A DNA stretch of 5,785 nt from Candidatus Fermentibacterales bacterium (GTDB lineage: Bacteria > Fermentibacterota > Fermentibacteria > Fermentibacterales > JAFGKQ01). Made by a program: the position numbers and the translations under genes. The stretch is from NCBI GenBank assembly GCA_016928495.1, contig JAFGKQ010000127.1:1-5785 (forward strand). Reading direction: 5' to 3'. Below the pieces are notes generated by a model. It was given only the letters and a program-made list of their open reading frames with translations. It was not told the DNA's origin and made no database searches. This document shows, in pieces, positions 4,714 through 5,328 of the stretch. Within the stretch, counting starts at the first letter, position 1. Each line of letters opens with the position of its first letter.

Positions 4714-5328
4714 ATGGGTTCTTTCTCTAGCGTCCTGCAGCCTCTGCGCAGCGCCTCGGACTACCTTCTCCGCAGGCCGGTCCCTTCCTCCATGCCCAAC
4801 ATCGTTCTCATAGAGCCCACGAACGCCTGCAACCTCCACTGCAGGATGTGCTCACGCGACTACGGACAGAGAGAGACCGGGTTCATGGACCCGGCCTTCT
4901 TCAGCGGTCTGATCGATCAGGTCGAGCTGTTCAGACCGCTGGTCATCACCCTCCACCTCGCAGGGGAGCCGCTCATGCACCCGGAGCTTCCCGGGATGGT
5001 CCGGATCGCTGCCGGGAAGGGCCTGCACGTCCTCTTCTCCACCAACGGCGCCCTTCTGACCCCGGAGGTCTCGCGAGAGCTGATAGAAGCGGGCCTGAAG
5101 GCGATCCGGATCGACTTCACCACTGACGTGGAGAGGTTCTCCTTCGCCAGAGCCGGCCTGGACTGGGAACAGGTGCGCAGGAACATCGAGAGCATGATCG
5201 AGCTGAGGAACAGCATGGGGCTCCACTTCCCTCTGGTCCGGCTCCACGTGCTGGTCTTCAGAGAGAGAGAGAGAGAGAGAGAGAGAGGACATCTCGAGGC
5301 TCAAGGGCCTCTTCTCCTCGCCTCCTGA
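4714..5328 (+). CDS. Radical SAM enzyme, N-terminal part, cut off by a frameshift at the (AG)14 tract
   Basis: As read, this frame gives 204 residues: most of a radical SAM barrel followed by an Arg-Glu repeat and a short out-of-frame tail. Cys39, Cys43 and Cys46 (C-NLH-C-RM-C) would hold the 4Fe-4S cluster that cleaves S-adenosylmethionine. The preceding NIVLIEPTNAC strand and the LHLAGEPLMHP segment (a GGEP-type SAM-binding motif) are typical, and FSTNGALLT matches the next conserved strand. The frame meets the AG tract right after the strand RLHVLVF, reads (RE)4-R, and stops at 5326-5328. The natural continuation (DISRLKGLF...) lies in another frame from 5288. With 15 or 12 AG units the two parts would fuse into about 348 or 346 residues, a normal length for radical SAM/SPASM enzymes. 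Start: ATG 4714 is best by homology. AGGAG at 4693-4697 is too far (16 nt), and GTG 4687 or an ATT at 4678 with GGGAGGAG 6 bases upstream are alternatives. The substrate is unknown. Confidence 0.85.
   Translation: MGSFSSVLQPLRSASDYLLRRPVPSSMPNIVLIEPTNACNLHCRMCSRDYGQRETGFMDPAFFSGLIDQVELFRPLVITLHLAGEPLMHPELPGMVRIAAGKGLHVLFSTNGALLTPEVSRELIEAGLKAIRIDFTTDVERFSFARAGLDWEQVRRNIESMIELRNSMGLHFPLVRLHVLVFRERERERERGHLEAQGPLLLAS
5260..5287 (+). repeat. Perfect dinucleotide microsatellite (AG)14 inside the radical SAM gene
   Basis: Twenty-eight uninterrupted bases of alternating A and G, coding Arg-Glu repeats in the upstream frame. The upstream reading frame uses codons starting at position 5260, while the SPASM-coding frame downstream uses codons starting at 5288. 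Adding one unit (2 bases) or removing two units (4 bases) joins them. With 14 units translation ends at TGA 5326-5328. With 13 it ends at TAG 5334-5336. Long pure dinucleotide tracts in coding sequence are known sites of slipped-strand mispairing in phase-variable genes. Confidence 0.97.

Follow-up and report, generated by a model that had tools for sequence, protein, structure and literature searches.

A dinucleotide repeat splits a radical SAM/SPASM gene of Fermentibacterota: a candidate phase-variable locus

Does the AG microsatellite that divides a radical SAM/SPASM gene of an uncultured member of the Fermentibacterales mark a gene in decay, or could it work as a length-dependent ON/OFF switch? 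The window, as we call the whole stretch of 5785 bases analysed here, is one entire contig (G000:C217) of a 2.3 Mb genome that is 81% complete and consists of 337 contigs. The gene starts on the plus strand at 4714 and contains, at 5260-5287 of the same strand, a pure 28-base tract that is exactly (AG)14 and lies, as a first-pass annotation had stated, where the reading frame changes between the radical SAM barrel and the SPASM domain. The radical SAM half is in frame from its ATG to 5259 (Pfam Radical_SAM, PF04055, 6.1e-16) and has the CxxxCxxC motif as CNLHCRMC; the linker and SPASM half (5288-5758, plus strand; PF13186, 9.3e-16) ends in a stop at 5756-5758. We translated the gene at 1-19 AG units. 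With the 14 units assembled, the frame runs into a TGA at 5326-5328 (plus strand), giving a product of 204 aa, and 13 units lead to a TAG at 5334-5336, whereas 12 or 15 units give a single open frame to 5758 via (RE)4- or (RE)5-DISRLK, as does every unit number divisible by three. The frame arithmetic of the annotation for 12, 13, 14 and 15 units was reproduced in full, including its point that one length in three is open and the other two terminate within about 50 bases. A GTG-started frame of 139 aa (GTG 5339) spans the SPASM domain, and at 5727-5785 (plus strand) a possible further gene (MLEGAEEEAFDRYGGPLHT...) may begin, as suggested by its overlap with the end of the radical SAM frame; it is cut by the contig end.

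Apart from the tract, the gene has no stop or other frameshift on either side, and its coding composition is similar before and after the repeat (third-position GC 0.86 and 0.81, respectively). In an alignment with 18 complete homologues, which come from many phyla, it keeps 23 of 23 invariant or nearly invariant positions, including CxxxCxxC and the SPASM cysteines, all five of which are intact, and both Pfam and the alignment place it in the radical SAM/SPASM family. The stretch between the barrel strand and the conserved H-x-W measures 29 residues at 12 units, the commonest length among intact homologues, and 31 residues at 15 units, within the span of 23-32 seen in them. In the AlphaFold2 model of one intact homologue (L086, mean pLDDT 87.5), the tract site falls in the loop that joins strand 175-181 to helix 188-200. 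No nucleotide relatives of the locus were found among the viral contigs or plasmids searched.

Not one of 200 dinucleotide-preserving shuffles of the window contained even (AG)8, and a pattern search across the genome returned nine further sites with five or more AG units, each of exactly five and none of 6-13, making the 28-base tract a clear outlier, beyond chance. We extended the count to four dinucleotide types in 42 genomes of the order, in which (AT)8 and (CG)8 were absent and tracts of at least eight units numbered six in total: two lie in the radical SAM gene, two interrupt genes of probable membrane glycosyltransferases, and the remaining pair consists of an in-frame and an intergenic tract. 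In G018, a (GA)13 tract (L067 1500-1525, G018:C113) interrupts the gene of a long membrane protein that matches PMT_2 weakly; at 12 or 15 units the frame is open for 514-516 aa. This gene is a further candidate contingency locus of the order. In G012, a (GT)8 tract (L077 1501-1516, G012:C40) interrupts the gene of a multi-spanning membrane protein, whose frame reopens to 321-323 aa at 7 or 10 units; the protein has no clear match in Pfam but looks, from its sequence, like a glycosyltransferase. Each of the two is one unit from an open frame. Both remaining tracts belong to G017, namely an in-frame (GA)9 in a lipoprotein-like gene adjoining an ABC ATPase gene and the intergenic (AC)10. If tracts were placed randomly among ~2,000 genes, two given genomes with one tract each would have it in the same gene with an estimated probability of ~1/2,000, or somewhat less than 1% when summed over all pairs of the six tracts. 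Poly-G runs of at least 11 were common and were dropped as a tract type because many of those listed are terminal in their contigs and resemble sequencing artefacts. Poly-G of up to ~100 bases stands at several contig starts (G006:C1, G008:C51 and G003:C7), likely sequencing artefacts in public metagenome-assembled genomes (MAGs).

The second tract-bearing radical SAM gene (L084 422-1482, G002:C60) comes from a related family of the same order; its identity to the window gene is 44% before the tract and 46% over the SPASM part. The two genes are reciprocal best matches, the G002 copy is the closest relative of the window gene within the order, and a tree of 75 sequences makes them sisters (support 100/96). 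The genes flanking the G002 copy differ from those of the window and lend no synteny support, and orthology therefore rests on the reciprocal best matches and the tree; a dN/dS estimate from the codon positions of the two genes was discarded as too saturated. The repeat of the G002 copy, (CA)12, comes after '...RDLNAEHPLGAV' within the SPASM half and ~80 residues further downstream than the site of the window's tract; it is out of frame, with 11 or 8 units restoring '...QVALPEVWRG...LCRSCSRP...'. A different repeat, elsewhere in the same gene, points to an origin independent of that of the window's (AG)14. The G002 copy may nonetheless be decaying, since it carries a second lesion, CNLSYPMC, in which Tyr replaces one cluster-binding cysteine of CxxxCxxC, and since its in-frame form would have 4-6 extra residues in a loop whose length is 10-11 residues in all intact homologues of the alignment. 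At 79 other homologue loci, no tract was found inside the radical SAM gene; two other runs were rejected, a poly-A13 near L160 because the homologous gene does not include it and a (GT)6 in L115 because it belongs to a different gene.

What such an enzyme might do is suggested by its relatives and surroundings. The named NCBIfam radical SAM equivalogs (e.g., TIGR04317), against which the two halves were scanned separately, gave a top score of 88.5 bits, where the cut-off is 380. The closest solved relative is BtrN, by sequence (1e-36) and by fold (3e-15, Foldseek), followed by BlsE, PqqE and peptide maturases. BtrN is a radical SAM aminocyclitol dehydrogenase of butirosin synthesis; it is shorter than and ~20% identical to the window family, and is known to carry a 'Twitch' auxiliary domain. 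Homologues elsewhere have as neighbours other radical SAM and B12-binding proteins and asparagine synthases, as well as polysaccharide flippases, methyltransferases and glycosyltransferases, and in G002 the gene next to the radical SAM copy encodes a GH114 glycosidase-like lipoprotein. The minus strand of the window (1-4591) encodes Der, PlsY, a Wzm-like permease, a Wzt-like ATPase with the Wzt C-terminal domain and a PMT_2 glycosyltransferase that is cut by the contig start; the Wzm/Wzt-type polysaccharide exporter and the glycosyltransferase thus lie beyond der and plsY and on the strand opposite to the radical SAM gene. The predicted enzyme probably modifies a surface carbohydrate or a related small molecule.

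From the sequence we infer the following course in cells. Slipped-strand mispairing during replication would add or remove AG units; one length in three would fuse the radical SAM barrel to the SPASM domain (ON), the remaining two would stop translation within ~50 bases (OFF), and the sequenced majority (consensus) form with its 14 units would be OFF. The repeat would encode (Arg-Glu)n in the loop that leads from a conserved barrel strand to the next helix, where extra residues should be tolerated. The window gene shows four traits of simple-sequence-repeat (SSR) contingency loci: a pure tract within a reading frame, with a unit length that is not a multiple of three; a gene intact but for this tract and restored at 12 or 15 units; a tract length above chance and genome background; and a tract kept or re-evolved in the orthologue, as (CA)12 in G002, though that copy has another lesion. 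Of the switch proposed in the first-pass annotation, the ON/OFF anatomy stands and gains support from the different out-of-frame tract of the sister gene, while the switching as such we still infer. Besides the signs of decay in the G002 copy, two observations count against switching. Mismatch repair normally damps dinucleotide slippage, and MutS and MutL, which are present in the order (for MutL of the window's genome, the C-terminal part alone was found, at a contig end), would slow it. Dinucleotide tracts in Neisseria were unchanged in length between isolates (PMC5953494). On the whole, we think that the window gene is probably a slippage-driven contingency (phase-variable) gene, which probably acts on surface carbohydrate.

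The strongest rival explanation is relaxed constraint, under which the gene would be dispensable in both lineages, unremoved microsatellites would have expanded in it and the window would show an early pseudogene. Decay would suit the facts that neither Fermentibacterota copy is in frame, that the one in G002 is without one cluster-binding cysteine and has its tract in a loop of conserved length, and that a close copy of the gene is missing from most genomes of the order. Yet the tract is the sole lesion of a window gene that has every invariant residue in place, no other AG run in its genome reaches six units, two of the six tracts of 42 genomes falling in one gene would be unlikely under random decay, and two other tracts break probable membrane glycosyltransferases, the usual targets of switching. 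We consider relaxed constraint unlikely, though it deserves serious weight. The tract might instead be misread, with a real length of 12 or 15 units and a gene that is simply intact; the source is one metagenome-assembled genome, and PCR-based libraries stutter at dinucleotide tracts. This is improbable, as 28 bases are well within a single read, a one-unit mistake would leave the existence of a long pure tract unexplained, and the sister gene, which comes from a separate assembly, has a tract of this kind too.

There are two further explanations. A repetitive tract could let RNA polymerase slip, and transcriptional slippage or programmed frameshifting would then yield a constant fraction of full-length product; we judge this very improbable, given that no stimulatory RNA structure was found around the tract (the fold is weaker than that of shuffles, z = +1.5) and that the slip site is not conserved, because the sister gene has another repeat at another place. 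The GTG-started frame that covers the SPASM domain could also be read as one half of a split gene, with a barrel protein and a separately started SPASM protein both functional, but the sister gene breaks elsewhere, inside the SPASM half, and every intact homologue examined is fused, leaving this explanation scarcely credible.

Beyond the single gene, phase variation in the window gene would fit a wider scheme, plausible but tentative. In it, dinucleotide microsatellites of Fermentibacterota would switch envelope glycosyltransferases as well as a radical SAM/SPASM enzyme that modifies carbohydrate, and the switch in the gene of this enzyme would have arisen convergently at least two times with different repeats.

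Repeat-based phase variation is classical, and the SSR contingency loci of Haemophilus, Neisseria, Campylobacter and Helicobacter share with the window gene a pure short-unit tract within the reading frame and one length in three in frame, and are often tied to surface-glycan genes. The window gene differs from them in belonging to an uncultured phylum, in its dinucleotide unit, where mono- and tetranucleotides are commoner, and in being known here from an assembly of a single length. Fermentibacterota are known from environmental and digester metagenomes, and to our knowledge work on repeat-driven switching has been confined almost entirely to pathogens and commensals adapted to a host. If the window gene does switch, such a case, in a phylum known from metagenomes, would suggest that selection for switching can have other sources, for instance phages that attack surface glycans, and would show where among their surface genes these uncultured cells vary. 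Our literature search returned no paper joining Fermentibacteria with phase variation. The earlier remark that no radical SAM case was established proved too strong, however: a PhasomeIt survey lists two radical SAM superfamily genes of Campylobacter fetus, CFT03427_1545 and CFT03427_1558, among putatively phase-variable genes (PMC6321876). They resemble the window gene in having a repeat tract in a radical SAM gene, a likeness drawn from their MoaA/NifB/PqqE/SkfB annotation, and differ in having poly-G of 9-10 and in coming from another phylum. As these were already catalogued, the window gene is not the first of its kind, and its added interest comes from the phylum and from the independence of the two tracts that one gene has acquired.

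A mononucleotide run was seen beside one of the radical SAM homologues, in an Actinomycetes MAG. The adjoining gene, which encodes a glycosyltransferase-like membrane protein, contains C14 on its coding strand (L087 4288-4301), translated as ...GDPPPPLFF... and in frame as assembled.
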